From contig NZ_FQZP01000018.1 in the NCBI RefSeq assembly GCF_900142095.1, forward strand, positions 1-40,832: 40,832 nt of DNA. The letters are read 5' to 3'. Source of the stretch: Thermoclostridium caenicola (GTDB taxonomy: Bacteria; Bacillota; Clostridia; DSM-8532). Positions 738 to 34,585 of the stretch are shown in pieces. Below the pieces are notes generated by a model. It was not told the DNA's origin. It did no database searches and was given only the letters and a program-made list of their open reading frames with translations. Numbering within the stretch: the first letter of the stretch is position 1; each line of letters begins with the position of its first letter. Position numbers and translations under genes: made by a program.

Positions 738-1967
738 ATGAGCGCTGAGTTGCTTCACGCCCTCGAACAATTGGAGAAAGAGAGAGGCATCAATAAGGAT
801 ATTCTGGTGGAAGCCATTGAACAGGCGTTGATTTCTGCATATAAAAGAAATTTCGGCTCGGCTCAGAATGTAGAGGTCGTGATTGACAGGACAACCGGAG
901 ACGTCAGGGTCTTTACGCATAAAACCATCGTGGGAGAAGTAACCGATCCTGCCACCGAATTGTCCATTGAACAGGCAAAACGGTTCGGCGCGGACTTTGA
1001 AATCGGCGATATCGTTGAGGTGGAAGTGACACCCAGGAAGTTCGGGAGAATTGCGGCGCAAACGGCCAAGCAGGTTGTCATGCAGAGGATTCGTGAGGCA
1101 GAGCGCGGCATTATATATGATGAGTTCGCCAATAAGGAAGAGGACATTGTAAGCGGCATTATCAGCCGGTTTGACAGGAAGAATGTCATCATCGACCTGG
1201 GCCGTGCGGAGGCTATCCTGCCGCCCGGTGAACAGACACCCGGAGAAAAATACAATGTCCATGATCGCATCAAGGTCTATGTGATCAATGTGAAGAAAAC
1301 CAATAAGAATCCCCAGATTTATGTTTCCAGGACCCATCCGGGACTGGTGAAAAGGCTTCTGGAACTGGAGGTTCCTGAGATCGCCGATGGTACGGTGGAG
1401 ATCAAGAACATTGCCAGGGAAGCCGGTTCCAGAACCAAGATTGCTATCCACTCCAGGAATGAAAACGTGGATCCCGTTGGTGCCTGTGTCGGCCAGAAGG
1501 GCAGCAGGATCCGGGCCATCGTGGATGAACTGCGGGGTGAAATGATAGATGTCATCAAGTGGAGCAGCAATCCTGAAGAGTTTATCGCCAGCAGTCTGAG
1601 CCCGGCCAAGGTGGTACAGGTTGATCTGGACGAAGAAGCCAAGGTGGCCAGGGTGATCGTTCCCGATTTCCAGCTGTCGCTGGCTATCGGAAAGGAAGGC
1701 CAGAATGCAAGGCTTGCCGCAAAGCTGACCGGCTGGAAGATAGACATTAAGAGCGAGTCACAATTCAGGAGCCAGATAGAATCCCAGCTCTTCCATCCTG
1801 GAGCGTTATCCGGCCAGGAGGAAGGGGATGCGGCATACGACGATGCCGAGGTTCCCGATGAGGCAGATATCCAGATGTCCGCAGCAGAGAATACTGAAGC
1901 CAATGCGGTGGCTGAGGATTCCGATTATGACAACGAAACGGTTACAGCTGATGATGAAAATCTCTGA
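738..1967 (+). CDS. nusA: Transcription termination/antitermination factor NusA
   Basis: NusA binds RNA polymerase and modulates pausing, termination and antitermination. The order along the 409-residue protein is the RNAP-binding N-terminal domain (about 1-125), an S1 domain (about 130-200), KH1 with GQKGSRI near residue 252, and KH2 with GKEGQNARLAAKLTGW near 318. A Glu/Asp-rich tail of about 50 residues follows. It lacks the C-terminal acidic repeats of proteobacterial NusA, as usual in Firmicutes. A GGAGG (723-727) precedes the ATG. It sits between rimP and ylxR, and may feed back on the leader hairpin at 207-233. Confidence 0.96.
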   Translation: MSAELLHALEQLEKERGINKDILVEAIEQALISAYKRNFGSAQNVEVVIDRTTGDVRVFTHKTIVGEVTDPATELSIEQAKRFGADFEIGDIVEVEVTPRKFGRIAAQTAKQVVMQRIREAERGIIYDEFANKEEDIVSGIISRFDRKNVIIDLGRAEAILPPGEQTPGEKYNVHDRIKVYVINVKKTNKNPQIYVSRTHPGLVKRLLELEVPEIADGTVEIKNIAREAGSRTKIAIHSRNENVDPVGACVGQKGSRIRAIVDELRGEMIDVIKWSSNPEEFIASSLSPAKVVQVDLDEEAKVARVIVPDFQLSLAIGKEGQNARLAAKLTGWKIDIKSESQFRSQIESQLFHPGALSGQEEGDAAYDDAEVPDEADIQMSAAENTEANAVAEDSDYDNETVTADDENL

Positions 1968-20366: not shown

Positions 20367-22349
20367 ATGCCCGAATTCAAGCTCAGATCGGATTATAAGC
20401 CAACAGGGGATCAACCCAGGGCCATAGAAGAGCTCACAGAGCTGATATTGAACAACAGCCGGCATCAGACGCTCCTGGGTGTCACCGGTTCAGGCAAGAC
20501 CTTCACCATTGCCAATGTCATTGAACGGGTCCAGAAACCCACCCTGGTCATTGCTCACAACAAGACGCTGGCTGCCCAGCTGTGCAATGAATTCTCCGAG
20601 TTTTTCCCGGATAACGCCGTGGAATATTTCGTGAGCTATTATGATTATTATCAGCCCGAAGCCTATATACCGGCCACAGACACTTATATCGAGAAAGATT
20701 CATCCATCAATGATGAAATAGACAAACTGCGGCACTCTGCAACAGCCGCCCTTTTTGAGCGGCGGGATGTGATCATCGTGGCCAGCGTTTCCTGCATCTA
20801 TGGTCTGGGTGATCCGGAGGACTATACCGATCTCATGCTGTCCTTAAGGCCCGGCATGATCAAGGATCGGGACGAGGTCATCAAGAAACTGGTGGACATC
20901 CAGTACACCAGGAACCAGTATGATTTCAAACGGGGAACCTTCCGGGTGCAGGGCGATATCCTGGACATCTTCCCGCCATCATCCAGCAATACGGCGCTGC
21001 GGGTGGAATTCTTCGGCGATGAGATCGAAAGGATAACCGAGATCGACGCCCTTACCGGAGAAATCATTGGCTACCGGTCGCACATTGCCGTGTTCCCGGC
21101 CTCCCACTTTGCCACCAAGAAGGAAAAGATGCAAAGGGCGATCCAGAGCATCGAGCAGGAGCTGGAAGAAAGGCTTCGCGAACTGAGGGCGGAAGGCAAA
21201 CTGGTGGAGGCACAGCGTCTTGAACAGCGTACCAGGTACGATCTGGAGATGATGCAGGAAATCGGGTTCTGCCAGGGGATTGAGAACTATTCCCGACATA
21301 TCAGCGGACGGGCGCCGGGCAGTGCCCCCTATACGCTGCTTGACTATTTCCCCAAGGACTTCCTGCTGGTGATCGACGAGTCACACGTCACCGTGCCCCA
21401 GATCGGTGCCATGTACAACGGCGACCGTTCCAGGAAGCAAGCCCTCGTGGAGTATGGTTTCAGGCTGCCATCGGCCTTCGACAACAGGCCGCTGACCTTT
21501 GAGGAATTCAATGAGCGCATTAACCAGGTGATCTATGTCAGCGCAACGCCTGCCGAGTATGAGCGGAAACTGTCCACCAGGGTGGTGGAGCAAATCATAA
21601 GGCCCACCGGGCTCCTGGATCCGGAGATCGTGGTGAAACCGGTCAAAGGTCAGATCGATGATCTGCTTGACGAGGTGAATGCGGTCGTCCAAAGGGGAGA
21701 AAGGGTCCTGGTGACTACGCTGACCAAGAGGATGGCGGAGGATTTGACCAAGTACATGGCGGATATGGGCGTTCGCGTAAGGTACCTGCATTCCGACATC
21801 GATACCATAGAACGCATGGAGATTGTACGGGATCTGAGGTTGGGCAAGTTCGATGTGCTGATAGGAATCAACCTGCTCAGGGAAGGACTTGACATCCCCG
21901 AGGTTTCCCTGGTGGCCATTCTGGACGCGGACAAGGAAGGATTCCTGCGATCCGAGACATCCCTGATCCAGACCATTGGCCGTGCAGCCAGAAATGTAAA
22001 CGGCCGGGTCGTCATGTATGCCGATACCATTACCCAGTCCATGGAGCGGGCCATCAACGAAACCAACCGGCGCCGGAGAATCCAGCATGAATATAACGTG
22101 AAACATGGCATTACGCCCAGGAGTGTCCAGAAAGCTGTGCACCAGGTCATCGAGGCAACCCATGCGGCCGAGGAGACCAAGGAATACAAGGCAGGACAGA
22201 AGAGCATGGAATCCCTGAATGTGGATACCATTAAGTCCCTGATAGAATCCCTGGAAAAGGAAATGAAGCAGGCGGCGAGGGAACTGGAGTTTGAGCGCGC
22301 TGCGGCTCTCCGCGACCGGATCGCGGAACTGAGGCAGTATCTGCAATGA
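20367..22349 (+). CDS. uvrB: Excinuclease ABC subunit UvrB
   Basis: UvrB is the damage-verifying helicase-like subunit of nucleotide excision repair. The 660-residue protein has Walker A GVTGSGKT at 38-45, the beta-hairpin segment [12 protein letters not shown] near 92-103, Walker B DESH at 337-340, and helicase motifs including the QTIGRAARN stretch in the second half. The C-terminal UVR domain that contacts UvrC runs from about 620 to 660. GGAGGGAG (20356-20363) precedes the ATG. uvrA, usually next to uvrB in Clostridia, is not downstream; an intergenic repeat and a glycosylase gene are. Confidence 0.97.
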
Positions 22350-22361
22350 GGCTTTGAACTT

Positions 22362-22600
22362 TACGGGCCTCCCTCCCGCGCGGTTGTCATTGCGGGCCAT
22401 GCGAAGCGAGGCGTGGCAATCTCCGGGAGCACGTAAAGCCGGTCGCTGTGCTGTACGGCTGCTAAACAGCTGTTCGAATGAGGGGCGGCCGAACTCGCTT
22501 CGCTCGGACAGCAGCCGCCCTTATCCCATTCTCACAGGCTGTTTTGGCACCTTATCGCAATGAAACCTTGACCTACGGGGTCCCTGTTGGAATGCCCACG
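22362..22600 (+). repeat. Modular intergenic repeat, copy A
   Basis: This non-coding stretch shares several blocks with 33522-33680. P is a 38-base imperfect palindrome beginning TGTCATTG and ending GGCAATCT (22386-22423). m1 is 22432-22461, starting CGTAAAGCCGG. m2 is 22525-22562, starting CCCATTCTCACAGG, with 36 of 38 bases identical to the other copy by my count. m3 is a looser block seen both before P and after m2. Between m1 and m2 copy A carries about 63 extra bases with their own hairpin (22483-22520). It overlaps the upstream in-frame extension of the glycosylase ORF, which is therefore probably not translated. Confidence 0.75.
22483..22520 (+). repeat. Palindrome inserted within repeat copy A
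   Basis: A 7-bp GC-only stem (22483-22489 with 22514-22520) encloses a segment with the internal CTCGCTTCGCTCGG pattern, typical of short extragenic palindromes. It is absent at the equivalent place in copy B (between 33552 and 33560). Confidence 0.55.
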
Positions 22601-22651
22601 GTAGACAATAGACTTTCAACCCGGCTTGAACTACAGAACGGAGGGTTTATC

Positions 22652-23368
22652 GTGTCCTTAATCCCTGAAAACAGGCATCCGGCATGGTCGGATTTCCTGG
22701 ACCAAAAGACCATGGCAATGCTTGATGAAATAGAATCCTGCCTTGGCGAGGATATCAATCCCCGCAAGCAGGATGTCCTGCGATTCCTCACCATTGACCC
22801 GGGGCAGGTTAAGGTGGTCATCCTGGGACAGGATCCCTATCCCGAGCCGGGAGCCGCAACAGGCCGGGCCTTTGAGGTGGGAACGCTGAAATCCTGGCAC
22901 CAGCCGTTCAGGCAGGTTTCCCTGAAGAATATCGTGCGTTTGATCTACAAAACCTATAATCATATCGAGGATTATTCCGATATTCCGACATTTTCGCAGA
23001 TCCTGCCCGAGATTAACGACGGACGTTTTGCCCTTGAATCTCCGGACAGGCTGTTTAAGGCGTGGGAACGCCAGGGCGTACTTTTGCTGAATGTCTGGCT
23101 CACTTCCTGCGCATCCTCGCCGGGGGCGCACCGTCGCATCTGGCATCCTTTTTCGAAAAGGCTTTTGAATTACCTGTCCGGAACTTATCCGGATTTGACC
23201 TGGTTTCTCTGGGGGAAGCATGTCATTTCCTATAAGCCTGAAATTCATTCGGGAACCCTGATGGAATCCAGGCATCCCATGATGTGCTCATCCGCTTACC
23301 CCGATGATTTTCTCAAGTCGGACTGTTTCAGAAATACCATGAAAATCATCAACTGGAAAGGAAAATAA
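22652..23368 (+). CDS. ung: Uracil-DNA glycosylase family protein
   Basis: The family removes uracil from DNA at the start of base-excision repair. The 238-residue protein has the water-activating motif GQDPY at 59-63 (D61), the strand GVLLLNVWLT near 145-154 and a C-terminal HP motif at 208-209 (SRHPMMCSS). In standard family 1 enzymes these read GQDPYHG and HPSPLS, so residues after the first motif and around the second differ. I start it at GTG 22652, behind GGAGGG (22640-22645). The frame stays open upstream to 22478, but that part is repeat sequence. Activity on uracil is likely but not certain. Confidence 0.8.
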   Translation: MSLIPENRHPAWSDFLDQKTMAMLDEIESCLGEDINPRKQDVLRFLTIDPGQVKVVILGQDPYPEPGAATGRAFEVGTLKSWHQPFRQVSLKNIVRLIYKTYNHIEDYSDIPTFSQILPEINDGRFALESPDRLFKAWERQGVLLLNVWLTSCASSPGAHRRIWHPFSKRLLNYLSGTYPDLTWFLWGKHVISYKPEIHSGTLMESRHPMMCSSAYPDDFLKSDCFRNTMKIINWKGK

Positions 23369-23412
23369 TGGGCTAATTGGAAAGCATAAGAGTCACGCTC
23401 AGGGGTTAACTT

Positions 23413-24753
23413 ATGAAAAGAGATTACAGACGGAGCGTGATCCTTTTGCTGAAAAGAAAATGGTTCCTGTTATCTTTTTTCATTTTATCTCTGATGGTGG
23501 CGGTCGCTTATGTGGTGACGCTCTTTGTCCTTCCCGGGCATATTACCCTTCTTGCCGGTGAGGACTATACCATTTCCATTCGTTCCCCGCTGTTTCTCCA
23601 GGCTTTTACCGACAGCAGCCTGTTAAAACTGACCTATATGGATGATCAGGCCGTTGATGCCTTCGAAAGGCCGTACAAACTTACATGCACAGGCGAAGGC
23701 CGGGCGGAAATGGAAGTGAAGATGCTGGGGTTTATCCCTGTTAAGACCATTGAAGTGAAGGCCATACCCAGCCAGCAGGTCCTCGTTTGCGGCTTTCCCG
23801 TGGGAATCAAGCTGAAAACCAGCGGCGTCATGATCATCAATGTTTCCAGCGTGGTACTGGAAAACGGCGAAAAGGTATCCCCGGCTGAGGAAGCCGGCCT
23901 GCTGGCTGGGGACATCATTATCGGTGCTGGCGGGAAGAATATTCAAAGCATCAAGGATCTGGTCTCGGTTATCGAAAACTCCAATGGGAAACCCATTCCC
24001 ATCACCTATGTGCGCCGGAATGTCAAGTATCATACGTCGGTGAAACCGTTCAAATCGGCTGAAGATACGCAATACCGCATTGGTATCTGGGTCAGGGACA
24101 GTTCTGCGGGCATTGGAACCCTGACTTTTATCGATCCTGAAAGCAAGGTTTATGGTGCTCTGGGACACGGAATCAGCGATATTGACACCGGTTCCCTGCT
24201 TCAGGTAGGCTCCGGCCAGCTGATGCGTTCAAACATCAAAGGCGTCAAAAAAGGAATCAAAGGTACGCCGGGCGAACTGGAGGGTGATTTTCTCAGCAAG
24301 AACCAGGTCATTGGCGATATCGAACTGAACTGTGATTTCGGTGTTTACGGACGGTTGGCTGATGATTTCCATGATCCCAAGGGCCGGCCCATTTCCATCG
24401 GCTCCCATAGCCTGGTCCATGTGGGAAAAGCGTCCATCCTGGCCTGCATCCGTGATGATATTGTGGAGGAGTTTGAGATAGAGATTCAGAAGATTGCCAA
24501 GTGGGACCTGGGAAGCACGAAAAACATGGTTATCCGGATAACGGACAAAAGGCTGCTGCAGGCCACCGGCGGCATTGTACAGGGCATGTCCGGAAGCCCG
24601 ATCCTCCAGGACGGACGTCTCATCGGAGCCGTGACCCATGTCTTTATCAACGATCCGGAGAGGGGTTACGGCGTGTTCATTGAATCCATGCTGCAGCAGG
24701 CCAAAGCCGTAGCCGGCAGATACCGGGGAATGCCAAAAGCTTCAGGTTTTTAA
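23413..24753 (+). CDS. spoIVB: SpoIVB serine protease (sporulation sigma-K checkpoint, family S55)
   Basis: SpoIVB is secreted from the forespore and triggers pro-sigma-K processing in the mother cell. The 446-residue protein has an N-terminal membrane anchor (about 15-40), a PDZ domain (about 135-215) and the S55 peptidase domain. Candidate catalytic residues are H252 in GALGHGISD, S393 in GMSGSPI, and D378 in RITDKRLL. The spacing of D to S (15) matches that known from the Bacillus enzyme. The ATG at 23413 follows AGGGG (23401-23405). spo0A, its normal neighbour, is elsewhere in this window. Confidence 0.94.
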   Translation: MKRDYRRSVILLLKRKWFLLSFFILSLMVAVAYVVTLFVLPGHITLLAGEDYTISIRSPLFLQAFTDSSLLKLTYMDDQAVDAFERPYKLTCTGEGRAEMEVKMLGFIPVKTIEVKAIPSQQVLVCGFPVGIKLKTSGVMIINVSSVVLENGEKVSPAEEAGLLAGDIIIGAGGKNIQSIKDLVSVIENSNGKPIPITYVRRNVKYHTSVKPFKSAEDTQYRIGIWVRDSSAGIGTLTFIDPESKVYGALGHGISDIDTGSLLQVGSGQLMRSNIKGVKKGIKGTPGELEGDFLSKNQVIGDIELNCDFGVYGRLADDFHDPKGRPISIGSHSLVHVGKASILACIRDDIVEEFEIEIQKIAKWDLGSTKNMVIRITDKRLLQATGGIVQGMSGSPILQDGRLIGAVTHVFINDPERGYGVFIESMLQQAKAVAGRYRGMPKASGF

Positions 24754-24789
24754 AGCTTCAGCCTGAATACCGGGAGGTTATAAAAGCCT

Positions 24790-24822
24790 GCCTGCCGTAT
24801 CCATGACGCGGCAGGCTTTTTT
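24790..24822 (+). terminator. Intrinsic terminator after spoIVB
   Basis: An 8-bp stem (24790-24797 with 24809-24816) is followed by TTTTTT. An A-rich 5' flank (24782-24785) could also pair with the T run, making it work in both directions. Confidence 0.88.
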
Positions 24823-24926
24823 ATACCAGCGCTGATCCGGCATCCGCCCTGCAGCCGTTTCTGCATTTGTGCTCCCATATTCGGGATTTGTGTCGCAAGA
24901 AGTCCGCTTTTATATTGATATAAAAA

Positions 24927-24941
24927 ATGGTATAATACCAT
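24927..24941 (+). promoter_or_regulatory. Extended -10 promoter overlapped by a perfect inverted repeat
   Basis: TGG-TATAAT (24928-24936) is an extended -10. The same bases form a perfect 7-bp inverted repeat, ATGGTAT-A-ATACCAT (24927-24941). No good -35 box is seen. The arrangement resembles an operator placed over a -10 box, 30 bases before the DUF3842 gene. Confidence 0.45.
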
Positions 24942-24970
24942 AGTGATGATTTTTAGTCGATTGGGGGATC

Positions 24971-25390
24971 ATGATGCGCATAGCAGTGGTAGACGGTCAG
25001 GGGGGCGGAATGGGAAAGACCCTGGTTGAAAAGATCCGGGAAACCCTGGGGTCCGGGGTCAGGATTCTTGCTCTTGGAACCAATGCACTGGCTACTGCTG
25101 CGATGCTGAAGGCAGGGGCGGATGAGGGCGCAACTGGTGAGAACGCTATTGTGGTAAACGCCTCCAAGGTTGATTATATCCTTGGCTCGGTAGGGATTCT
25201 GGCTGCCAATGCCATGCTGGGTGAACTGACCCCGAGAATGGCTGCGGCCATCGCCGAAAGCCCCGCCCAGAAGATACTGATACCGTTTAACCGTTGCAGC
25301 CTTTTTATAGTTGGCACCCGGGACGAACCACTGATCAAGTACATCGAGGAAGCCGCCGAATTGCTGAAAGCCATGATTTCAGCCGAATAA
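24971..25390 (+). CDS. DUF3842 family protein
   Basis: A 139-residue protein of unknown function found in Clostridia. Its N-terminus MMRIAVVDGQGGGMGKTLVEKI looks like a nucleotide-binding strand-loop-helix with a glycine-rich turn. The middle has ALGTNALATAAMLKAGAD, and the C-terminal part has NRCSLFIVG. GGGGGA (24963-24968) precedes two tandem ATGs at 24971 and 24974; the second is better spaced. It is followed by the TPR-GGDEF gene, with 76 bases between them. No enzymatic role can be read from the sequence alone. Confidence 0.8.
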   Translation: MMRIAVVDGQGGGMGKTLVEKIRETLGSGVRILALGTNALATAAMLKAGADEGATGENAIVVNASKVDYILGSVGILAANAMLGELTPRMAAAIAESPAQKILIPFNRCSLFIVGTRDEPLIKYIEEAAELLKAMISAE

Positions 25391-25466
25391 GCGGCAGTTG
25401 GACTGTTATCTTGAAAGATCAGGAAATCAGCGAATATCAGTTTTCTGCAGTCTGTTGGTGTTGCTT

Positions 25467-27011
25467 ATGAAAAGGACTGTCCAGGAAATCAATCATCTCC
25501 TGGAGGAAGCCAGAGCGCAAATCAATACCGATCCCTCCTTGTCCCGCCAAAAGGCTTCTGAGGCATTGAGCCTTTCCGAATCATGCCAGTATCTTGAAGG
25601 ACAGTTCGAAAGCCTCTTTATCCTGGGGCGGGTTTCCAATCTCTACAATCTGGGCTCCGAATCCATTGAGATCTTTGAAAGATGCTACAAGACAGCCGAT
25701 GTCATGGGCGATTCCAGAAGAAAGGCCATGGCCGTGAACGCTCTGGGTGTGACCTATGACAACACGCTGGTTCACTCCAAGGCGCTGGAATGTTTTCTAG
25801 ATGCCCTGGATATCACCCAAAAGCATCAGTTTCAGGACCTGGAGTGCAAGATCCTGAACAATGTGGCTTCTGTCTTTTCCTATCTGAAGGATTATCAGAC
25901 AGCCCTTTCCTATCTGCTTGAGGCTTATCAGAAATCGCTGGGGTCAGGTGAATCCGTAGCGGTTTACCTGCGCAACATAGCCAACATCTACCTGGAGATG
26001 GAGGACTTTGACAAGTGCTATGAGTACAGCATCCTGGCCCGCAATGCCGCCTGGCGCGAAAACGACGGGGAACAGAGAGGTGACGTCTATTTCTTTCTGG
26101 CTCTGGTATATGCCAGGAAGAACAGGCTGCGGAGGGCTTTCCGTTATTTCAACCTCGGATTTGAACTGACCAGGCGCAACCACTGTTTCCATTCCCATGC
26201 CGAGGGCTGCTATGATCTCGCCAGGATATTCCACGCCCAAAAACAGTATGACAGCGCCATCAAGTATCTGAACAAGGCCAGGGAATTGGCTTCGGCCTAT
26301 GGATACCATGTGCTGCTGAAGGATATTCTCAGGCTTAGCGCCGAAACATACCGTCTCATGGGAGACACCGGGATGGAACTCCAGTCGCTGAGGGATTACG
26401 TGGACATCTGTACGCAGCTGGAATCCAAGGATGTGGACAAGAAAAAGAATTATGCCCATCTGCAGTTGTCCCTGTTCAAAATGCGCAAGGAACAGGAGTA
26501 CCTGAAAGCCCAGGCTTATACCGATCCCCTGACAGGCTGCCTGAGTTACAGAGATTTTGACAGGACAGTCCAGGAGTATATCAAAAAACATGCGGATCGC
26601 CGCGTGGCCGTCATCTTTATGGATATGGACAACCTGAAACCCATCAACGACAGGTATGGCCATGACGCGGGGGATCAGTTGATCCTGGAGTTTGCAGGTA
26701 ACATTAAGGAGGCCCTGGGTGATTCAGGCCTCATCTTCAGAAAGAGCGGGGATGAGTTTGTTGTTATCAAACCCTTTACAAGCAGGGATGAACTGAAAGG
26801 GTTTTATGTCAGCCTTTTCTCCCGCCTGTCGAAGGTGAGGGTTATCGGCAGGACACTTACCAACATCAGCTGCAGCATGGGTATTGCCATTGCCCCCGAC
26901 GATTCAACCCAGCCTGCAGAACTTGTCAGGATGGCGGATACGGCCATGTATCGTGCCAAAAGGACAGGAAAAAGATGTTGCTGCTTTTATGATGAGATCC
27001 ATATAAAATGA
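25467..27011 (+). CDS. TPR-repeat diguanylate cyclase (GGDEF domain)
   Basis: A 514-residue cytoplasmic protein. Residues about 1-330 are helical TPR-like repeats (for example AVNALGVTYDNT, ILNNVASVFSYLKDYQTAL and YLRNIANIYLEMEDF). A short coiled linker leads to a GGDEF domain (about 350-512) with FMDMDNLKPINDRYGHDAGD and the signature SGDEF at 427-431. SGDEF is a known active variant, so c-di-GMP synthesis is likely. I see no RxxD inhibitory site before it. There is no membrane segment. The start is ATG 25467; the frame is open back to 25398 without a ribosome site. TPR repeats probably bind a protein or peptide partner, not identified here. Confidence 0.85.
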   Translation: MKRTVQEINHLLEEARAQINTDPSLSRQKASEALSLSESCQYLEGQFESLFILGRVSNLYNLGSESIEIFERCYKTADVMGDSRRKAMAVNALGVTYDNTLVHSKALECFLDALDITQKHQFQDLECKILNNVASVFSYLKDYQTALSYLLEAYQKSLGSGESVAVYLRNIANIYLEMEDFDKCYEYSILARNAAWRENDGEQRGDVYFFLALVYARKNRLRRAFRYFNLGFELTRRNHCFHSHAEGCYDLARIFHAQKQYDSAIKYLNKARELASAYGYHVLLKDILRLSAETYRLMGDTGMELQSLRDYVDICTQLESKDVDKKKNYAHLQLSLFKMRKEQEYLKAQAYTDPLTGCLSYRDFDRTVQEYIKKHADRRVAVIFMDMDNLKPINDRYGHDAGDQLILEFAGNIKEALGDSGLIFRKSGDEFVVIKPFTSRDELKGFYVSLFSRLSKVRVIGRTLTNISCSMGIAIAPDDSTQPAELVRMADTAMYRAKRTGKRCCCFYDEIHIK

Positions 27012-27044
27012 TAGGAGAATGTATGGTCAGCTTCAGGAGGATAC

Positions 27045-27887
27045 ATGCCAGACAGTGAAATCCATGCGCAGCTTCTGCGCATACGCATTGAAAAACCGAG
27101 AATCATCGATATCCCTGGTATGAAGGATTTTCCGGAACTGGTTCAGGGGTTCACCACCCGCTATGGCGGTGTCAGTCAGGGCCCTTATGCGACGTTGAAC
27201 CTGAACTTTTACCGGGAGGATGATCCCGCGCGGGTCATGGAGAATTTTCGCCTGCTGTCCGAAGAGGTGGGAGTTTCCCTTGAGAATATGGTCCTATCCC
27301 GGCAGGTCCACGGATGCCGCGTGTTCAGGGTGGATGATACCCACAGGGGAATGGGCGTGATACGCCCGCGTTCCTATGATGAGGTGGACGGGCTGACGAC
27401 CGATATTCCGGGCATCATGCTGGTAACCTATTATGCCGACTGCGTGCCCCTGTATTTTTATGATCCGGTGAAAAAGGCCATATGCCTGTCCCATTCCGGA
27501 TGGAAGGGTACCCTGCTGGACATAGCCGGCGAGTCGGTGAAAACCATGAAAAACCACTATCAAAGCCGGCCGGAGGATATCCGTGTCAGCCTTGGGCCGC
27601 ATATCCGTGCCTGCTGTTTTGAAGTGGGAGATGATGTTGCCCGGAAATTCTTTGACACTTTCCCATGGTCGGAAGAATCTGCGGGAAAGAACGACAAGGG
27701 CAAGTGGACCCTGAATCTTGAGGCTGTCATCCGGGGAAGCCTTCTGCGGCATGGCATTCTGGAACAACATATTTTCAGCTGCCCATTCTGTACCAAATGT
27801 GAACATGATGTCTTTTTCTCCCATCGGGGGAGTGGTGGAAAGACCGGAACCGGGGCGGCTCTGCTGATGATAAGGAGTTCGGTATGA
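27045..27887 (+). CDS. pgeF: PgeF/YfiH-type laccase-domain protein (peptidoglycan editing factor)
   Basis: Members of this family (once called polyphenol oxidase) remove wrongly inserted residues during wall precursor synthesis in E. coli and hydrolyse nucleosides in vitro. The 280-residue protein has the three metal-binding patterns: QVHG near 86-89, YYADCVPLYF near 129-138 and SHSGWKGT near 148-155. It also has GPHIRACCFEVG and a C-terminal FFSHRG. AGGAGG (27035-27040) precedes the ATG. Its stop overlaps the next gene's ATG (ATGA), so it heads a unit with the solute-binding lipoprotein. Confidence 0.92.
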   Translation: MPDSEIHAQLLRIRIEKPRIIDIPGMKDFPELVQGFTTRYGGVSQGPYATLNLNFYREDDPARVMENFRLLSEEVGVSLENMVLSRQVHGCRVFRVDDTHRGMGVIRPRSYDEVDGLTTDIPGIMLVTYYADCVPLYFYDPVKKAICLSHSGWKGTLLDIAGESVKTMKNHYQSRPEDIRVSLGPHIRACCFEVGDDVARKFFDTFPWSEESAGKNDKGKWTLNLEAVIRGSLLRHGILEQHIFSCPFCTKCEHDVFFSHRGSGGKTGTGAALLMIRSSV

Positions 27888-29428
27888 AGAAAACGGCCAT
27901 TTTCCTTGCTTTGCTTCTTTTCATTACGGGATTGTCGGGCTGCGGCCAGCAAGCCGCCAACCAGGAGGATGCCGGATATTATACCGGCCGGGAGGAGATG
28001 CCCGTCCTTTCACAGGATTCCGGGCCCGCCAAAGGCGGCATTCTCAGCCTCTTCATGACCACACCGGATTCCCTGAATCCCCTTTATACATTGAACCCAT
28101 ATGTCAGGAACCTTTCCATGTTCGTTTTTGACTCGCTGTTTATTGCGGATGGGGAGGACAGCTGTGTCAATCTGCTGGCCGAGTCCTGGCAGCTGAGTGA
28201 TGACGGTGTGACCCTGGATATCAAGCTGCGGGACAAAATCACTTTCCATGACGGCTCGGAGTTTTCCGCAAAGGACGTCGCCTTTACCATTGAAGCCATC
28301 CGCAATGCCGGAGCGAGAAGTCCCTATATGGACAATGTGGCCAATATTGACAGCGTCATGGTAACCGACAGGCTGCAGGTGCGCATGATCTTCAGAAAAA
28401 AGGATCCCCGCTGGCAGCTGAAGATGACCTTTCCCATCCTTCCCGAGCATGTGTTCAGAGACTGGCCCATAGACGGTTATGATCCTGATCAGAAACTGAT
28501 AGGTACAGGGGCATACCGTTTTGATGCCATTCAGGATGATGTGATATCCCTCTCCCGCCATGACGACTGGTGGTATGTTTCAGCACCGGATGGCCTTGGC
28601 CACCCGGTATGGATCGATCGCATTCAGTTCATCATCCATGGCGGTGAGCATGAAATGATGGCCTCTTTCCAGAAGAACATCATCGACATTGCCACGGTGA
28701 GCGGCAACAATATGGATTATTATGCCAATCGTTCCGATATTTTATATAGCCCATATGTGGGGAACCGCTTTGAATATATCCTCCTTTCCAATGTGGGGGC
28801 AGACAACCGGAGAATGGAGAACGTGGCATTCCGGACCATACTGCTCAGGTACCTGGCCGGTTATATGACCCAGAACCCGCTGGAACTCGGCGTATCGGCA
28901 ATTGAAGAAGTTGCCTGGGGAGATATGGAAAAACGTGCGGACAGGGAGGAAGCATTGGCAGCTCTGGAAGAGCTGGGGATGGTGTATGACGAGAGGAAAA
29001 ACGTGCTGTATACCTTCCGCAATGGTGCAAGAACGCCCCTGAACCTGAGCGTCCGGTACAACAGCCTCGATCTGGACAGGGAGACTGTTGCCGAATGGCT
29101 CCAGGCCGCGCTCAATGATATAGGTATTAACGTGGTTCTTGAGAAATCCTCGGAAGAGGAGGAGATGAAAGCCGTTGCCAATGGCAGGTTCGACATCATG
29201 GTCCTGGGAAGCCGCATCCCGCATTTTTCCAGCCTGGAGGAGACGCTTGAGCTGATATGCGGGAACCTGGGCCTTGGAGGTGAGGAGGCCGTGATCCTCC
29301 CCCTGTACCGTAAGTCTGAAGCCGCGCTCTACAGCCTGGACATCAGGGGAGCAAAGGAGCCGTTCTGGAAGAATGTTTACAATGGCTGGACCGATTGGTA
29401 TCTGGTCCGGCACGGAACCGAGCAGTGA
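27884..29428 (+). CDS. Solute-binding lipoprotein, ABC transporter family 5 (peptide type)
   Basis: A 514-residue extracellular binding protein of the oligopeptide/nickel type. It has a lipoprotein signal with lipobox LSGC ending at C20, then the family pattern GGILSLFMTTPDSLNPLYT and ESWQLSDDGVTLDIKLRDKITFHDGSEFSAKDVAFTIEA (about 100-140, the SBP_bac_5 signature). The start overlaps the pgeF stop by 4 bases, suggesting coupled translation. No permease or ATPase gene is next to it, so it is an orphan binding protein. The ligand cannot be predicted. Confidence 0.9.
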   Translation: MKKTAIFLALLLFITGLSGCGQQAANQEDAGYYTGREEMPVLSQDSGPAKGGILSLFMTTPDSLNPLYTLNPYVRNLSMFVFDSLFIADGEDSCVNLLAESWQLSDDGVTLDIKLRDKITFHDGSEFSAKDVAFTIEAIRNAGARSPYMDNVANIDSVMVTDRLQVRMIFRKKDPRWQLKMTFPILPEHVFRDWPIDGYDPDQKLIGTGAYRFDAIQDDVISLSRHDDWWYVSAPDGLGHPVWIDRIQFIIHGGEHEMMASFQKNIIDIATVSGNNMDYYANRSDILYSPYVGNRFEYILLSNVGADNRRMENVAFRTILLRYLAGYMTQNPLELGVSAIEEVAWGDMEKRADREEALAALEELGMVYDERKNVLYTFRNGARTPLNLSVRYNSLDLDRETVAEWLQAALNDIGINVVLEKSSEEEEMKAVANGRFDIMVLGSRIPHFSSLEETLELICGNLGLGGEEAVILPLYRKSEAALYSLDIRGAKEPFWKNVYNGWTDWYLVRHGTEQ

Positions 29429-29444
29429 CAAGCCGAGGTCTTGT

Positions 29445-29951
29445 ATGGAAGAAGTCAGTCTGCATGATATCAGCTTCAGGAGCATCAACCCGCCGGACAT
29501 GGCACAGTTGGAAAAGTGGTACGCCATGACCGACGAGCTGGGCTATGCCACAGGATTCAAGCGGCTTGATGAGGTCAGGGAAAAGCTGCTGTCCTATCCC
29601 ATGACATCCATGATGATCATCCATGGAGAGGAACAGGCCGCGGGTTTTGTATGCTATGAGCTGAAAAACATGAACGGAAAGAATGTGGCATGGATACATA
29701 TCCTCCTCGTTGATCCGGCCTTCCAGAACAGGGGCATAGGCTCATGGACCATCCGGAAACTGCTGGAATGGTTTGAATCCATGGATACCACAGCGGTGGT
29801 GGTTTCGGTTTCCGAACAGAACCATCGTGGGCTTAAGTTCTGGGAAAACCTTGGCTTTTCGCGCTCCCTGGACCTGGAAAGAATTCTCAGCGGTTTTGGG
29901 ACCAAAGGCGTAGTCATCATGAAGAGATACCTGGAGAGACGCTGCTTTTGA
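29445..29951 (+). CDS. GNAT-family N-acetyltransferase
   Basis: A 168-residue acetyltransferase. The acetyl-CoA binding motif reads VDPAFQNRGIGSWTIRKLLEW near residues 86-106, including Q-N-R-G-I-G, and NHRGLKFWENLGF is the usual motif B region. GAGGT (29435-29439) precedes ATG 29445; the longer open frame from 29373 lies inside the previous gene. It starts 17 bases after the lipoprotein stop and is 42 bases before comEC. The substrate is unknown. Confidence 0.85.
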   Translation: MEEVSLHDISFRSINPPDMAQLEKWYAMTDELGYATGFKRLDEVREKLLSYPMTSMMIIHGEEQAAGFVCYELKNMNGKNVAWIHILLVDPAFQNRGIGSWTIRKLLEWFESMDTTAVVVSVSEQNHRGLKFWENLGFSRSLDLERILSGFGTKGVVIMKRYLERRCF

Positions 29952-29993
29952 CAGCGGGAAAGCCTGCCAATATGAAATCCGCGGAGAGCCGCC

Positions 29994-32591
29994 ATGAAAA
30001 GACCGTTGGCTGTATCGGCAATCGCCCTGATAATTGGCATACTGATTGCTGACTGGGTGCCCTCTCTGATACCGGGTTTATGTGCGGTATGTCTTCTTTG
30101 CCTTGCCGGATTGCTTTTATACCGAATACTGCCCGAAAGATCGCCCTTCCTTCTCCTGGCACCTGCGCTGTTGGTGTCAGGTTTTTTATTGCATTATTTC
30201 AATATCCAGGCCGTCAACAGCAGATTCCTGCCGTGGCATGGCCGCCAGGTGATGATAGAAGGGGCCATCCATGATGAGCCCGTCTTTTCCGACGGTCGGG
30301 TGATTTTCACCCTGTCGGCGGATACCATCCTGGAGGAGGACAAGTCCACCCCAATACGCAACGGCAGGATTAAAGTCACTGTTTACAGCGACAGTCCCTT
30401 AAGTGAGCTGCAGTACGGAAAGGTTGTCCGGATTGGTGCAACGCTGGAAATTCCTGCGGGACAGCGCAATATCGGGGGATTTGACTACAGGCGTTTCCTG
30501 GCGGCAAAAGGCATAACGGCGGTATGCAGCATCAATCCTTCGCAGATCAATGTGCTGGAAGGCAGCAGGGGCTTCTTTCCCAAAACCGCCGGCTATGCGA
30601 TACGCAGAAGTGTGCTGGATGCCCTCTACGGGAGCTTGCCGGAACAGGCGGCCTCCCTGGTATCGGGTATGCTCATCGGTTACACCCAGGAAATGCCCGA
30701 AAGCCTGGAAGATGCTTTCAGGCGGGCCGGCCTGTCCCATATCATGGCGGTATCCGGAGCCAATCTGGCCTTCCTGCTGATGCCGTTCATCTGGGTGCTG
30801 AAACGGGCTGGGTTGAATCCCAGGTGGGCGGCGGTGATTGCGTTTCCCGTGATGCTGCTCTATGTCTTTGCTACCGGTATGGAAGCCTCGGTGATGCGCG
30901 CCGCCATCATGGCCGGTATCATGCTTCTGGGGATGATCATCTGGCGGCAGACCGATTTCTTTTGCTCCATATCGGCATCAGCACTGGTCATCCTGCTTTT
31001 CAACACCTATATGCTGTTTGACCCCGGGTTTATTCTGTCCTACAGTGCGGCCATATCCCTCGTGGTGTTCTATAAACCGGTCTTTGAGAAAATTCCTGCG
31101 AAATTGCCCAAGATGATACGGGATACGCTGGCGGGAACCTTTTCAGCCCAGCTGGGTGTGCTTCCTGTCATCGCGGGGAACTTCAACAGCTTTTCGGCGG
31201 TTTCCCTCCTTGCCAACCTGGCGGTGGTGCCCATGACGGGGTTCCTGACGGCGCTGGCTGCTGTTCTGGTTATTTTCTGGCATGTATTCCGACCTGTCTG
31301 CCATGTGCTGGGCTGGGTGGTTTCCGTTTTGTCCCAGGTGATCCTGGCTGTGACCCATGCGCTTTCATCCCTGCCCTGGGCCGAACTGGCAGTGGCCACG
31401 CCCGGTTTTCTTCTGACGGCAGGGTATTACCTGATTCTTCTGACCATCCGCTATGTGGTGCCCTGGCTGGAACAGCGGGCCCGGAAGGCTTATCCTGTAA
31501 GGGCGGATGTATGCCTGGCCGGTGCGGACGGCATTGAAAGGGGATGGGCGGAAGCGGCTGCTGCCATTGGGAGAGGGCGCCTTGTCTGTCCCGGGGCTAT
31601 GGATGTACCGGGACAGTATGCAGGCATTGAGCCCGGTGCCGAAAAAGGACTGGGCCCGGTCCATGCGGGCCATGATGATGGAGCAGGCCGCAAGGCATCG
31701 CGAAGAAAAGGGGCCGGCCGGCTGATTGCCTGCATGCTGGCCGTCTACGGGAGCCTGATCCTTCTGGACCAGGTTCCCTCCGGTAAGCTTGAAATCTATT
31801 TTGCGGATGTGGGGCAGGGGGACTGCAGTATCATCACAACCCCGGCAGGAAGGTGCATCCTCATTGACGGCGGAGGCAGTATCTATGATGACGAGGATTC
31901 CTATACAGGGGAAAGGATCGTGGTTCCCGTCCTTTATGATCTCGGGATAACCCAAATTGACGTCATGATTGCAACCCATGGCCATGCGGATCATATCAAC
32001 GGCCTCAAGAGCGTTATGGATATGATGCGGGTAAAAAGGCTGGTGGTTGCCGATGCGGATGACACCGAAATGAACGAACTGATCGATCATGCCCGCAACA
32101 GGGGTATCCCGGTGGAGCGGGCCAACCAGGATGATATCATATACTCGGAAAAGGATCTCATGCTGACGGTGCTCTATCCCCTTGAGGACAAAGCGCGCAT
32201 GCCTGCAGGGAGTTCCACCAACGCCAATGAGCTTTCACTGGTGACAAGGCTGGATTATGCCGGGTTCAGCGCCGTTTTCACAGGGGATATCGGAACCTCC
32301 ACCGAAAACCGGATCCTTGACCAGCAGAAACTGGACTGTGATTTGCTGAAGGTTCCCCACCACGGTTCAAAATATTCATCAGGCGTCGAATTCATCATGC
32401 GGGCAAGCCCCGCTGTAGCCGTCATCAGCGTGGGGAAAAACCGCTACGGTCATCCCGACGAGGGCGTGAAACAACGTTATACGGCAGCAGGAGCCAGGCT
32501 GTACGAGACCCTCAGTCATGGCGGGATCCTGGTCAGGGTGGACGCCGTTCAACCCGACCGGATATCGGTATGGACGGTGATCAAAGAATGA
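29994..32591 (+). CDS. comEC: ComEC/Rec2 family DNA-uptake channel protein
   Basis: ComEC forms the channel that brings single-stranded DNA across the membrane during natural transformation. The 865-residue protein has an N-terminal DUF4131-type region with hydrophobic segments, then the multi-helix Competence domain (about 220-500, with GLSHIMAVSGANLAFL). A linker (about 503-578) and one more membrane segment lead to a beta-lactamase-like domain with ADVGQGDCSIITTPAG, ATHGHADHINGL and KVPHHGSKYSS. The HxHxDH set is intact. GGAGAG precedes the ATG. The linker's reading frame looks disturbed (see findings). The stop overlaps the convergent speB gene by 11 bases. Confidence 0.93.
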   Translation: MKRPLAVSAIALIIGILIADWVPSLIPGLCAVCLLCLAGLLLYRILPERSPFLLLAPALLVSGFLLHYFNIQAVNSRFLPWHGRQVMIEGAIHDEPVFSDGRVIFTLSADTILEEDKSTPIRNGRIKVTVYSDSPLSELQYGKVVRIGATLEIPAGQRNIGGFDYRRFLAAKGITAVCSINPSQINVLEGSRGFFPKTAGYAIRRSVLDALYGSLPEQAASLVSGMLIGYTQEMPESLEDAFRRAGLSHIMAVSGANLAFLLMPFIWVLKRAGLNPRWAAVIAFPVMLLYVFATGMEASVMRAAIMAGIMLLGMIIWRQTDFFCSISASALVILLFNTYMLFDPGFILSYSAAISLVVFYKPVFEKIPAKLPKMIRDTLAGTFSAQLGVLPVIAGNFNSFSAVSLLANLAVVPMTGFLTALAAVLVIFWHVFRPVCHVLGWVVSVLSQVILAVTHALSSLPWAELAVATPGFLLTAGYYLILLTIRYVVPWLEQRARKAYPVRADVCLAGADGIERGWAEAAAAIGRGRLVCPGAMDVPGQYAGIEPGAEKGLGPVHAGHDDGAGRKASRRKGAGRLIACMLAVYGSLILLDQVPSGKLEIYFADVGQGDCSIITTPAGRCILIDGGGSIYDDEDSYTGERIVVPVLYDLGITQIDVMIATHGHADHINGLKSVMDMMRVKRLVVADADDTEMNELIDHARNRGIPVERANQDDIIYSEKDLMLTVLYPLEDKARMPAGSSTNANELSLVTRLDYAGFSAVFTGDIGTSTENRILDQQKLDCDLLKVPHHGSKYSSGVEFIMRASPAVAVISVGKNRYGHPDEGVKQRYTAAGARLYETLSHGGILVRVDAVQPDRISVWTVIKE

Positions 32592-33426
32592 GGGCCAGTT
32601 CTCTCAGCAGCTTGCATGCGGCCGCGGTGGATATGCCGCTATGGTCGTAATGAGGTGCCAGTTCCACCAGATCGGCAGCCTTGATATCCAGCGGGGTGAG
32701 TTTAACCAGGAAGTTCATAAGTTCCCGGAACGTGACGCCGCCATGCTCCGGTGTGCCGGTGCCGGGAAAGGCCGAGGGATCCAGAACATCCAGGTCAATT
32801 GTCAGGTAAACCGGCCTGCGCCCGATTTCCTGGATGGCCTTTTCAACACCGTCCAGGACAAATGGCGTCAGGAAGGTGTGTTGCCTGGCCCACTGGAACT
32901 CCTCGCGCTCGCCTGAACGGATGCCATACTGCCAGATCCTGTTGTCGCCGACCTTTTCCCATACTCTTCTGATGACTGTCGCATGGGATAACTTAACGCC
33001 AAGGTAATCATCCCTCAGATCCGTATGGGCGTCCAGGTGGATGATACACAGGTCGGGAAAGGCTTCCAGAACGGCTTCCACGGCAGGCAGGGTGACCAGA
33101 TGCTCGCCGCCCAGCATAATGAATTTTTTCTGATCGCGCACAATGCGCCTGGCACAGTCCCCAATATCCCTGAGGACTTGCTGGGTATCCCCGAAGGGGA
33201 GATCCAGATCACCCAGATCGTGGCCCTTGAGATCGGTCATATCCTTGTCCTGATAGGGACTGTATGTTTCAATGCCATAGGATTCGTTGCGGATGGCCGA
33301 CGGGCCGAAGCGCGAACCCGGCCGGAAGGATACCGTGCCGTCAAAGGGTGCGCCGAACACAACGATGTCGGCATCTTCGTATGGGCTGTCGAAACCGAGG
33401 ATTTTGAATTCCGAATTTATCTTCAT
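32581..33426 (-). CDS. speB: Agmatinase/arginase-family ureohydrolase
   Basis: Probably hydrolyses agmatine to putrescine and urea; other ureohydrolase substrates are possible. The 281-residue protein has the Mn-binding motifs GGEH near 104-107, DAHTD near 129-133 and DLDVLDP near 211-217, and the N-terminal segment FGAPFDGTVSFRPGSRFGPSAIR typical of agmatinases. On the minus strand GGAAGGAG lies upstream of the ATG (33424-33426). It is the only clear minus-strand gene and converges on comEC with an 11-base overlap. No spermidine synthase or speD is nearby. Confidence 0.92.
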   Translation of the reverse strand: MKINSEFKILGFDSPYEDADIVVFGAPFDGTVSFRPGSRFGPSAIRNESYGIETYSPYQDKDMTDLKGHDLGDLDLPFGDTQQVLRDIGDCARRIVRDQKKFIMLGGEHLVTLPAVEAVLEAFPDLCIIHLDAHTDLRDDYLGVKLSHATVIRRVWEKVGDNRIWQYGIRSGEREEFQWARQHTFLTPFVLDGVEKAIQEIGRRPVYLTIDLDVLDPSAFPGTGTPEHGGVTFRELMNFLVKLTPLDIKAADLVELAPHYDHSGISTAAACKLLRELALIL

Positions 33427-33754
33427 CCGTACCTTTTCGCTCCTTCCAGGGGAATGCTGTCATCTTCCATCCCATCCTATTCAATCTTGGCAGCCCTGTC
33501 AACGGTTGATGTACGGAAGCCCGTAAAGGCCGGCTGCTGTGCTGCACGGCTGTCCTTTTCCCATTCTCACAGGCTGTTTTGGCGCCTTATCACAATGCGC
33601 CAACCTTTATGGGATCCCTTCCTGCACCAAATGTCATTGTGATCCACGCGTAAGCGGGGCGTGGCAATCTTGCCGCTACGGGCAGAATAGGGTAAAGTAT
33701 AGATAATCAATCATTAAGTCTTGATAGTCAATAACGGAAGGGCGGTTGCTGAGT
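33427..33754. other. Intergenic region between speB and thyA
   Basis: A 328-base gap between divergent speB and thyA. It holds the speB ribosome site and promoter region at the left, repeat copy B (33522-33680) in the middle, and an AT-rich segment (33690-33735) that probably carries the thyA promoter. No convincing hexamer pair is visible there. Confidence 0.6.
33522..33680 (+). repeat. Modular intergenic repeat, copy B
   Basis: Shares blocks with 22362-22600 in the same strand. m1 is 33522-33552, m2 33560-33597 (36 of 38 bases as in copy A), m3 about 33600-33625, and the palindromic block P 33632-33670. The order is m1-m2-m3-P, whereas copy A reads m3-P-m1-insert-m2-m3, as if the unit were circularly permuted or tandem. 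Neither block carries an ORF of note. Confidence 0.75.
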
Positions 33755-34585
33755 ATGAGTCGGGCGGATCTGATCTTCATAGAAATGTGCAAAGATATCC
33801 TGGAAAACGGGTTCTCTGATGAAGGGGCTGAGGTGCGGCCAAAATGGCCGGACGGCACGCCGGCCCATACCATCAAAAAGTTCGGCGTGGTCAACCGGTA
33901 CGATCTCTCGGCCGAGTTTCCCATCCTGACCTTAAGACCGACGAATTTTGAGAAAGCCATAGACGAAATCCTCTGGATCTGGCAGAAAAAGTCCAACAAC
34001 ATCAAGGATCTGAACAGCCACATCTGGGATGCCTGGGCGGATGAAAACGGCTCCATAGGAAAGGCTTATGGTTATCAGCTGGGCATTAAGCATCGCTATA
34101 AGGAAGGCGAGTTTGACCAGGTGGACAGGGTGCTTTATGATCTGAAGCATAACCCTTACAGCAGGCGCATAATTACGAATATGTACAACCATGCCGACCT
34201 GATGGAAATGAATCTTTATCCCTGTGCCTACAGCATGACCTTCAACGTGACAGGCAAAAAACTCAACGCCATCCTCCATCAGCGTTCCCAGGATGTGCTG
34301 GTGGCCAACAACTGGAATGTGGTGCAGTACGCGGTGCTTGTGCACATGTTTGCCCAGGTCAGCGGACTGGAAGCGGGCGAACTGGTCCATGTCATCGCCG
34401 ACGCCCACATCTATGACAGGCATATCCCCCTGGTGAAGGAACTCATCAGCAGAGAGCCCTATCCGGCGCCCAAATTTGTTATGAATCCTGATATCAGGGA
34501 CTTCTATGCTTTCCGGGTCAGCGACTTCAGGCTGGAAGGTTATGTGGCCGGACCGCAAATCAAGAACATACCTGTTGCGGTATGA
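33755..34585 (+). CDS. thyA: Thymidylate synthase ThyA
   Basis: ThyA methylates dUMP to dTMP using methylene-tetrahydrofolate. The 276-residue protein has the active-site cysteine C157 in LYPCAYSMTF, RSQDVLVANNWNVVQYAVLVHM and DAHIYDRH. The usual motif is PPCH and R-S-x-D-x-x-LG-x-P-F-N, so a histidine after the cysteine is replaced by alanine and the phosphate/dUMP segment is divergent. The catalytic Cys, Asp and HIY are kept. Start ATG 33755 lies behind GGAAGGGCGG (33736-33745); TTG 33746 is possible. folA follows, 13 bases downstream. Confidence 0.92.
   Translation: MSRADLIFIEMCKDILENGFSDEGAEVRPKWPDGTPAHTIKKFGVVNRYDLSAEFPILTLRPTNFEKAIDEILWIWQKKSNNIKDLNSHIWDAWADENGSIGKAYGYQLGIKHRYKEGEFDQVDRVLYDLKHNPYSRRIITNMYNHADLMEMNLYPCAYSMTFNVTGKKLNAILHQRSQDVLVANNWNVVQYAVLVHMFAQVSGLEAGELVHVIADAHIYDRHIPLVKELISREPYPAPKFVMNPDIRDFYAFRVSDFRLEGYVAGPQIKNIPVAV

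Follow-up and report, generated by a model that had tools for sequence, protein, structure and literature searches.

Two repeat-bearing regions of the window

The window analysed here, a 40,832-nucleotide (nt) stretch of the Thermoclostridium caenicola genome (contig NZ_FQZP01000018.1, positions 1 to 40,832 of the forward strand), contains two intergenic regions, A and B, in which a preliminary description had recognized the same four sequence blocks, P, m1, m2 and m3. The two regions do have these blocks in common, and the near identity of m2 is confirmed, with 2 differences between 22525–22562 and 33560–33597 (36 of 38 bases identical). The similarity of regions A and B is far above chance, because a BLAST search with 22362–22600 returned 38 matches in the same genome at an expect value of 0.001 or less, so that there are more copies than these two. 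The matches consist of pieces of an element that we call E, of a second element, P, or of both (Table 1).

The open reading frame (ORF) listed upstream of region A stops at 22349, directly 5′ of an orphan right end of E, and we take it to be uvrB. Region A then has the arrangement orphan E right end–P–E, and region B the arrangement short E–P. The second m3 block is E's own right end (22574–22585 in copy A, 33605–33619 in copy B), and the interval 22362–22600 truncates the orphan end on its left and overshoots the right end of E (22585) by 15 bases. What had been described as a separate palindrome inserted into copy A turns out to be an ordinary part of full E, its apical arm, which the 15 full-length copies aligned from this genome all possess. 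The loop of this arm in copy A carries two G for A (CTCGGACAG), and the copy A tip was left out of the 17-site tip comparison described below. Copy A (Table 1) and the short copy B (z −1.72) both fold weakly and look decayed. For the gene that follows uvrB, the longest ORF call (window 22478–22652) starts within E; the true start of this gene is probably downstream of E, and annotation may over-extend genes into repeats.

Table 1. Positions of E and P features in regions A and B of the window
Feature	Position	Strand	Remarks
Orphan E right end (block m3)	22356–22374	+	Lines up with E right ends
P, REP-like palindrome with TGTC tag	22385–22423	+	1 base off the 13-mer TGTCATTGCGAGC
E, full-length copy A (looks decayed)	22425–22585	+	RNA fold z −2.16; terminal branch 0.17
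Left terminal inverted repeat of E copy A	22425–22438	+	One mismatch
Right terminal inverted repeat of E copy A	22574–22585	+	Decayed
Apical arm of E copy A	22483–22520	+	9-nt stem, 20-nt loop (22492–22511), 9-nt stem
E, short form (copy B)	33515–33619	+	Without apical arm, about 105 bp
P 3′ of copy B	33632–33670	+	12 nt past E

Full-length E is about 160–169 bp long (typically about 167 bp), starts GGGAGCCCGTAAAG and ends CTTTACGGGCTCCC(T); at the fifth position of the end, most copies in the relatives have T, with A as its partner. A query with full E gave 40 matches in this genome (G000), where 40 of the 50 candidates were scored. Once 3 reverse-complement matches to copies counted before and 3 matches to the second piece of a copy are set aside, E occupies at least 34 distinct places, at least 15 of them with full-length copies. 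Four other genomes of the genus (G001–G004) yielded 37, 31, 18 and 2 matches, pieces and reverse-complement matches included; the counts for G000 and G001 are lower bounds, with at most 40 candidates scored in each. By BLAST, to which relatives that share the tip alone are undetectable, E was found in five of five genomes of the genus and in none of 36 genomes outside it. A scan of species genomes with a core pattern of E gave 19 stretches, all in three Clostridiaceae MAGs (one recorded as Bacillota). The phage search with E gave no match, the core pattern occurred 0 times in viral contigs, and the plasmid search with E returned one record, from Variovorax, that matched in the tip only. As far as searched, E is genus-specific in sequence. 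The earlier picture of a modular, dispersed, intergenic and apparently non-coding family was borne out, with no ORF of its own apparent in E.

E also has short and P-carrying derivative forms. Deletion forms like copy B (about 105 bp) occur at L018, L019 and L020, and several E copies in G001 and G002 hold an inverted pair of P (P–P′) where the tip would be. Tandem E–spacer–E pairs are found in G001 (L031 and L035).

Contigs C32, C47, C57, C61, C75, C78 and C86 of G003 terminate in, or a few bases from, E copies; near-identical copies may have broken this assembly, and the copy counts there are likely too low. Elsewhere, a partial E copy in L015, at about 1450–1500, adjoins a stretch that by eye is CRISPR-repeat-like and ends GGCGGGAATTGAAACACGC.

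A long interrupted hairpin kept by paired substitutions

As a single strand, E folds into one end-to-end hairpin with small internal loops. For the copy at L006, the predicted RNA fold has an energy of −95.1 kcal/mol (z −8.9), that of the other strand −102.3 kcal/mol (z −10.0), and the DNA fold −53.4 kcal/mol (z −8.1). Conserved pairing, which the preliminary description had suggested testing for, is found across the family. In an alignment of 27 of the 28 distinct full copies (one near-duplicate omitted; mean column identity 86%), 93.7% of cells were paired. Both sides had changed at 16 of 55 pairs, in 77 cells, compared with 8.7 and 26.6 in shuffles and at most 6 and 9 in slid controls; the count of pair types was not elevated (39 versus 41.1 shuffled, with 481 of 500 shuffles as high). 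The 14-bp inverted ends change together, columns 6 and 171 being GC in 13 copies, TA in 11, AT in 1 and unpaired in 2. The bubbles between the stems are conserved like the stems themselves (0.91 versus 0.90 across the 27 copies), with TG present in 27 of 27 copies, TGCAC in 24 of 27 and TTATC in 26 of 27. Given this covariation and a bubble conservation equal to that of the stems, both pairing and non-pairing are kept in E. Taken together, E is a dispersed element with inverted repeats at its bounds and a single long, interrupted hairpin that paired substitutions have maintained. Paired changes can also arise without function, through hairpin-templated repair.

The preliminary description had offered a structured RNA as one explanation of the family. 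E would then be transcribed and its hairpin would act in RNA, as a terminator or mRNA stabiliser, as has been proposed for ERIC and REP. The very stable RNA fold of E suits such a role, as do its intergenic position by a simple ORF method and the precedent of Yersinia ERIC, which is reported to regulate its neighbours in the form of RNA hairpins (PMC2267715). However, G–U should exceed A–C on the transcribed strand, but the E copies contain GT in 33 cells and AC in 37 (33 and 38 when the 2-bp hairpin inside is included), so RNA is not favoured as the active form. There is also no orientation bias: by a crude ORF finder, 21 of 34 E copies, full and partial, lie between co-directional genes, 10 the same way and 11 opposite, with 7 others between convergent genes, 5 between divergent genes and 1 undetermined. 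Nor does any G–T occur in 216 stem positions of the tip domain discussed below (registers chosen by Watson–Crick pairs), and the absence of G–T among so many kept pairs is unusual for RNA. Rfam 15 gave 0 matches at an expect value of 5 or less in window 22100–34000 and, in eight other loci, 5 matches at 1 or less, none at the gathering score. The mispair counts and the lack of orientation bias favour a DNA-level over an RNA-level element, and we regard action of the hairpin in RNA as very unlikely.

The E–P mosaic and the search for a mobiliser

P is about 40 nt long (TGTCATTGCGAG...GGCAATCTC). The 13-mer at its start, TGTCATTGCGAGC, occurs 38, 19, 31, 27 and 17 times in G000–G004 and 0 or 1 time per genome in 20 genomes outside the genus; the reversed 13-mer has 0 occurrences in this genome. 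The junctions of E and P were counted over 37 loci of this genome. Of 27 right ends of E, 18 have a P start on the same strand in the next 20 nt (in 8 cases at exactly 11 nt) and 0 have one on the opposite strand; of 28 left ends, 15 have a same-strand P end in the preceding 20 nt and 1 has an opposite-strand one. This makes 33 same-strand junctions and 1 opposite-strand junction, P starts with up to 3 mismatches being accepted and the junction at 6 nt in L014 being possibly due to chance. Gap lengths peak at 11 nt to the right of E and at 0–2 nt to its left, with 8 cases each. The junction lists do not include the orphan end at 22356, the short L122 right end or the left ends of L011 and L124. 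Where G001 has E, G002 (L131, G002:C66:1-250) has a run of P-bearing units with the spacer CCGACCTCAAAGCCCTTCTTATATTCCCACC in common, which make up a further kind of repeat unit.

The block order in regions A and B had been interpreted as the circular permutation of a single unit that once existed in tandem or excised as a circle. The part of this claim that stands is the fixed cyclic order of P and E, as for a tandem unit. E also occurs without any P (L006 and L007), so E and P are two element types and not one permuted unit; the apparent permutation arises because the same-strand order E–P–E–P is seen in two views. We therefore replaced permutation of one unit with two elements in a fixed order, on the count of 33 junctions against 1.

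A circle could nevertheless be involved if E and P together integrated site-specifically at a chromosomal P by means of a recombinase, as has been suggested for dRS3 in Neisseria, to leave a unidirectional P–E–P. The fixed spacing on both sides and the excess of same-strand junctions (33 versus 1) would follow from such events, and the NIME of Neisseria (PMC3898611) offer a precedent, in which dRS3 is 20 bp long, ATTCCC(N8)GGGAAT. E and P likewise join a short palindrome to a longer repeat (dRS3 and RS elements in NIME) in regular alternation and in intergenic arrays. P, at about 40 nt, is unlike dRS3, and the link to a prophage integrase belongs to NIME. The E copies in L006 and L007, which have no P at either end, and the inclusion of weak P starts (up to 3 mismatches) among the 33 junctions speak against site-specific integration of a circle, which we consider unlikely.

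In its inverted ends, its size of 160–168 bp (within the 70–300 bp class) and the lack of an apparent ORF, E matches MITEs; it differs from them in having no target site duplication. The search for duplications at 28 copies gave a mean of 1.5 nt, compared with 1.46 (s.d. 0.23) in 2,000 shuffles, and insertion was never caught, because no target duplication is present. An ordinary MITE of a DDE transposon, in which the terminal inverted repeats alone matter and the interior is passive, would explain the co-changing 14-bp ends as well as the size and dispersal of E. It would not explain the missing target duplication, the failure to find an autonomous copy with E ends in five draft genomes, the conserved stems and bubbles of the interior, or the recurrence of the tip in other phyla without the ends of E, and we hold it to be distinctly unlikely. 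The search for an autonomous copy covered these five drafts, which are broken at repeats, and found no pair of inverted ends (up to 1 mismatch) less than 6 kb apart around a transposase. One 2641-bp end pair in G000:C3 was rejected, as its ends belong to two different E copies and the ORFs in between were judged ordinary by eye; a 601-bp pair found in G003:C7 consists of one E copy and a further end 0.44 kb off.

The relatives' genomes offer some view of the history of E. All 15 full copies of G000 fall on one side of a branch with support of 98/94, with few resolved forks within, a grouping that may reflect either homogenisation or an expansion that postdates the split from the relatives. At locus B, G002 has an E with P inside, and G001 has only AAGGATTCCT, which we read as a fusion of the two ends of E; both outer sides are alike, and about 60 nt to the left of E differ. 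Since the window carries E in the same intergenic region and in the same orientation, loss of E in G001 is the simplest reading, the site not being a clean empty site.

REP palindromes moved by RAYT transposases provide a further comparison. P palindromes, like those of REPIN/REP–RAYT systems, lie in direct and inverted pairs, and four relatives have one Y1 gene. In contrast to those systems, no RAYT gene was found in this genome and no repeats were found flanking the gene of the relatives. The preliminary description had pointed to IS200/IS605-like transposases, and no Y1/IS200-type (PF01797) match was found in this genome, even though its E copies form a group of their own. G001–G004 each encode one Y1_Tnp/RAYT-like protein (L160–L163; 257 and 259 amino acids in the two read), of which two of the four were tested and scored 69.6 and 64.2, below the NCBIfam cut-off of 80, and neither P nor E was found in the 4.7–8 kb surrounding these genes. 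An IS200/RAYT mover was rejected on these grounds: no gene detected in this genome and no repeats detected beside the relatives' gene.

P also resembles CGTC-tagged REPs (Di Nocera et al. 2013, PMC3733652). In that account, CGTC-1 dimers of H. neapolitanus lodge in 41-bp palindromes, CGTC repeats are listed in five phyla, Firmicutes not included, and their mode of movement is left open. The start of P, TGTCATTGCGAG, has a TGTC variant of the tag followed by AT, and the P–P′ pairs inside E in G001 and G002 parallel the dimers in palindromes. P is longer, E is commonly without an internal P, and P lacks the short tail fitting CCA, most copies ending GGCAATCTC. The P copies that were folded, the two of the window, fold unlike the CGTC-REP stem of 8–9 bp with its loop of 4–5, and may be decayed.

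The ERIC or IRU repeats of enterobacteria (127 bp) and YPAL are intergenic, dispersed and predicted to form a single long stem–loop (PMC2267715). E is like them in its intergenic dispersal and single long stem–loop, and is set apart, as far as their description there goes, by its conserved 20-nt tip loop, its fixed bubbles and its REP-like partner. As a well-bounded repeat family, and as a palindrome of MITE-like and ERIC-like character joined to a REP-like partner in a mosaic that resembles NIME, E is a variant on known kinds. A text search of the literature for P strings and loop strings returned no relevant paper; subscription literature lay largely outside its scope, so a description elsewhere is possible.

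Recurrence of the tip hairpin in other phyla

Hairpins with the tip loop of E, AACTCGCTnCGCTCAAACAG, occur in plasmids of Variovorax, Ilyobacter and Parabacteroides and in viral contigs. A search with the tip only led to the plasmids of Ilyobacter (Fusobacteriota) and Parabacteroides (Bacteroidota), and searches with a loop pattern led to the viral contigs. The five plasmid tip sites all lie outside listed genes, the PLSDB gene tables being incomplete. Outside the Clostridia, the tip domain lacks the inverted ends of E and its leader is often different. The loop is constant by construction at the pattern-fetched sites, and the informative parts are the arms, the 27 E copies and a scan with a relaxed loop.

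At 17 tip sites (14 of them non-E), the 9-nt arms differ in sequence yet pair in 84.8% of cells, compared with 46.9% in shuffles and at most 49.0% in slid controls, with a covariation score of 0.908 versus 0.218. Double-change pairs (9 versus 7.9; 142 of 500 shuffles) and pair types (24 versus 21.2; 75 of 500) were within the range of shuffles. The loop pattern matched 101 stretches, 80 of which were listed, whereas the reversed pattern matched 13; the 82 loci read contained 53 distinct sites. Among the matches listed, 15 of these 53 sites pair at nine of nine arm positions, against 0.14% of random places, and 19 pair at eight or more, against 2.1%, with 34 below eight; the 15 fully paired sites have 11 different arms, some of them near-copies. 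The loop was also relaxed to 0–4 mismatches across 119 loci, which had been retrieved with the loop or with its reversal. Of the 69 sites obtained in this way, 21 had arms pairing at eight or more of nine positions, all of them at 0–1 mismatch, and paired arms accompanied the reversed loop at 1 of 44 sites. Anchored folds gave z values of −2.0 to −5.7 at non-E tip sites and of −7.6 and −10.0 for E.

A set of 24 sites with 18 different arms, made up of 19 picked for paired arms (G–T allowed) and the 5 plasmid sites, has 206 of 216 positions in Watson–Crick pairs, 0 in G–T, 2 in A–C and 8 in other combinations; the register was set by Watson–Crick pairs, which leans slightly against G–T. Candidates H7 and H35 proved to be without the loop and were discarded. 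In L177 the loop sits on a weak stem, with 4 apical pairs and 111 of 300 controls reaching as many, and this site stands in the 17-site set and not in that of 24. L180 and L185 were middling (26 and 12 of 300 controls as high) and were kept, as was the minus-strand copy of L187 (7 apical pairs, 79 of 300; 7 of 9 in a shifted register).

In the 27 E copies, which are free of any pattern constraint, 14 of the 20 loop positions are invariant, five change in 1–4 copies and one base, n, is free (T in 9 copies, G in 9, C in 6, A in 3). This base coincides with the N of GCGNAGC on the complementary strand. GNA loops closed by at least two G–C pairs form DNA mini-hairpins, and GCGAAGC melts at 78 °C (PMC4686876). 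The likeness of tips across phyla might accordingly be convergence on a stable DNA mini-hairpin, with no common descent: the complementary strand of the loop holds GCGNAGC, a self-stable kind of sequence, and the ends and leader differ between E and the other sites. The shared 20 nt, however, exceed the length of a mini-hairpin, and TTA[AT]CGC lies within 130 nt 3′ of the tip at 9 of 25 sites, E included and several of them near-copies, against 2.9% of random places (pattern chosen post hoc). Convergence seems to us somewhat unlikely. A leader such as AAGTAACCAAAAA or TCAAGGC accompanies 14 of the 25 tip sites, E not among them, against 4.0% of random places (pattern chosen post hoc); E has its terminal inverted repeats in place of such a leader.

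The tip looks like a domain common to hairpins of at least three other phyla. Our preferred explanation, which we consider probable, is that E is a palindromic mobile DNA repeat, non-coding and non-autonomous, whose size and inverted ends are those of a MITE and whose hairpin acts as single-stranded DNA and is moved in trans. E would work in its folded single-stranded form; an enzyme supplied in trans would recognize the hairpin by its fixed bubbles and its tip capable of forming GCGNAGC; and E and P would travel or duplicate together, giving rise to E–P–E–P arrays. We propose more tentatively, and with rather less than even confidence, that the E tip belongs, as one branch, to an unnamed class of DNA hairpins spanning Bacillota, Pseudomonadota, Bacteroidota and Fusobacteriota. 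Members of this class would combine the fixed 20-nt loop AACTCGCTnCGCTCAAACAG with a freely varying Watson–Crick stem and act as single-stranded DNA whose complementary strand caps itself through the GCGNAGC mini-hairpin, and they may serve as a recognition module for an undescribed system of single-strand DNA transposition, recombination or replication start.

Palindromic intergenic repeats are common, and their mobilisers and active form, DNA or RNA, are mostly unknown. The fixed two-part order of E and P, a structure without preference for G–T and a tip found in several phyla are concrete handles on this problem: the loop for protein pull-down, the stem for a test that separates DNA from RNA action, and the plasmids of Variovorax, Ilyobacter and Parabacteroides. 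Membership of the tip in a wider, unnamed class of DNA hairpins, if it holds, is the aspect worth following.

Plasmids and phages were searched for relatives of the L183 element, and none was found. In the Parabacteroides plasmid record L187, two opposed tip copies, at 792–829 (+) and 1155–1192 (−), flank a 75-bp ‘smalltalk protein’ gene, and the pair resembles the two ends of a composite element. The viral-contig sites L190, L191, L200, L203, L213 and L250 carry long hairpin elements that closely resemble one another and have leaders of the kind TTTCTTGCTTGTGCAAGAAAG; they form a separate subfamily of the tip class.
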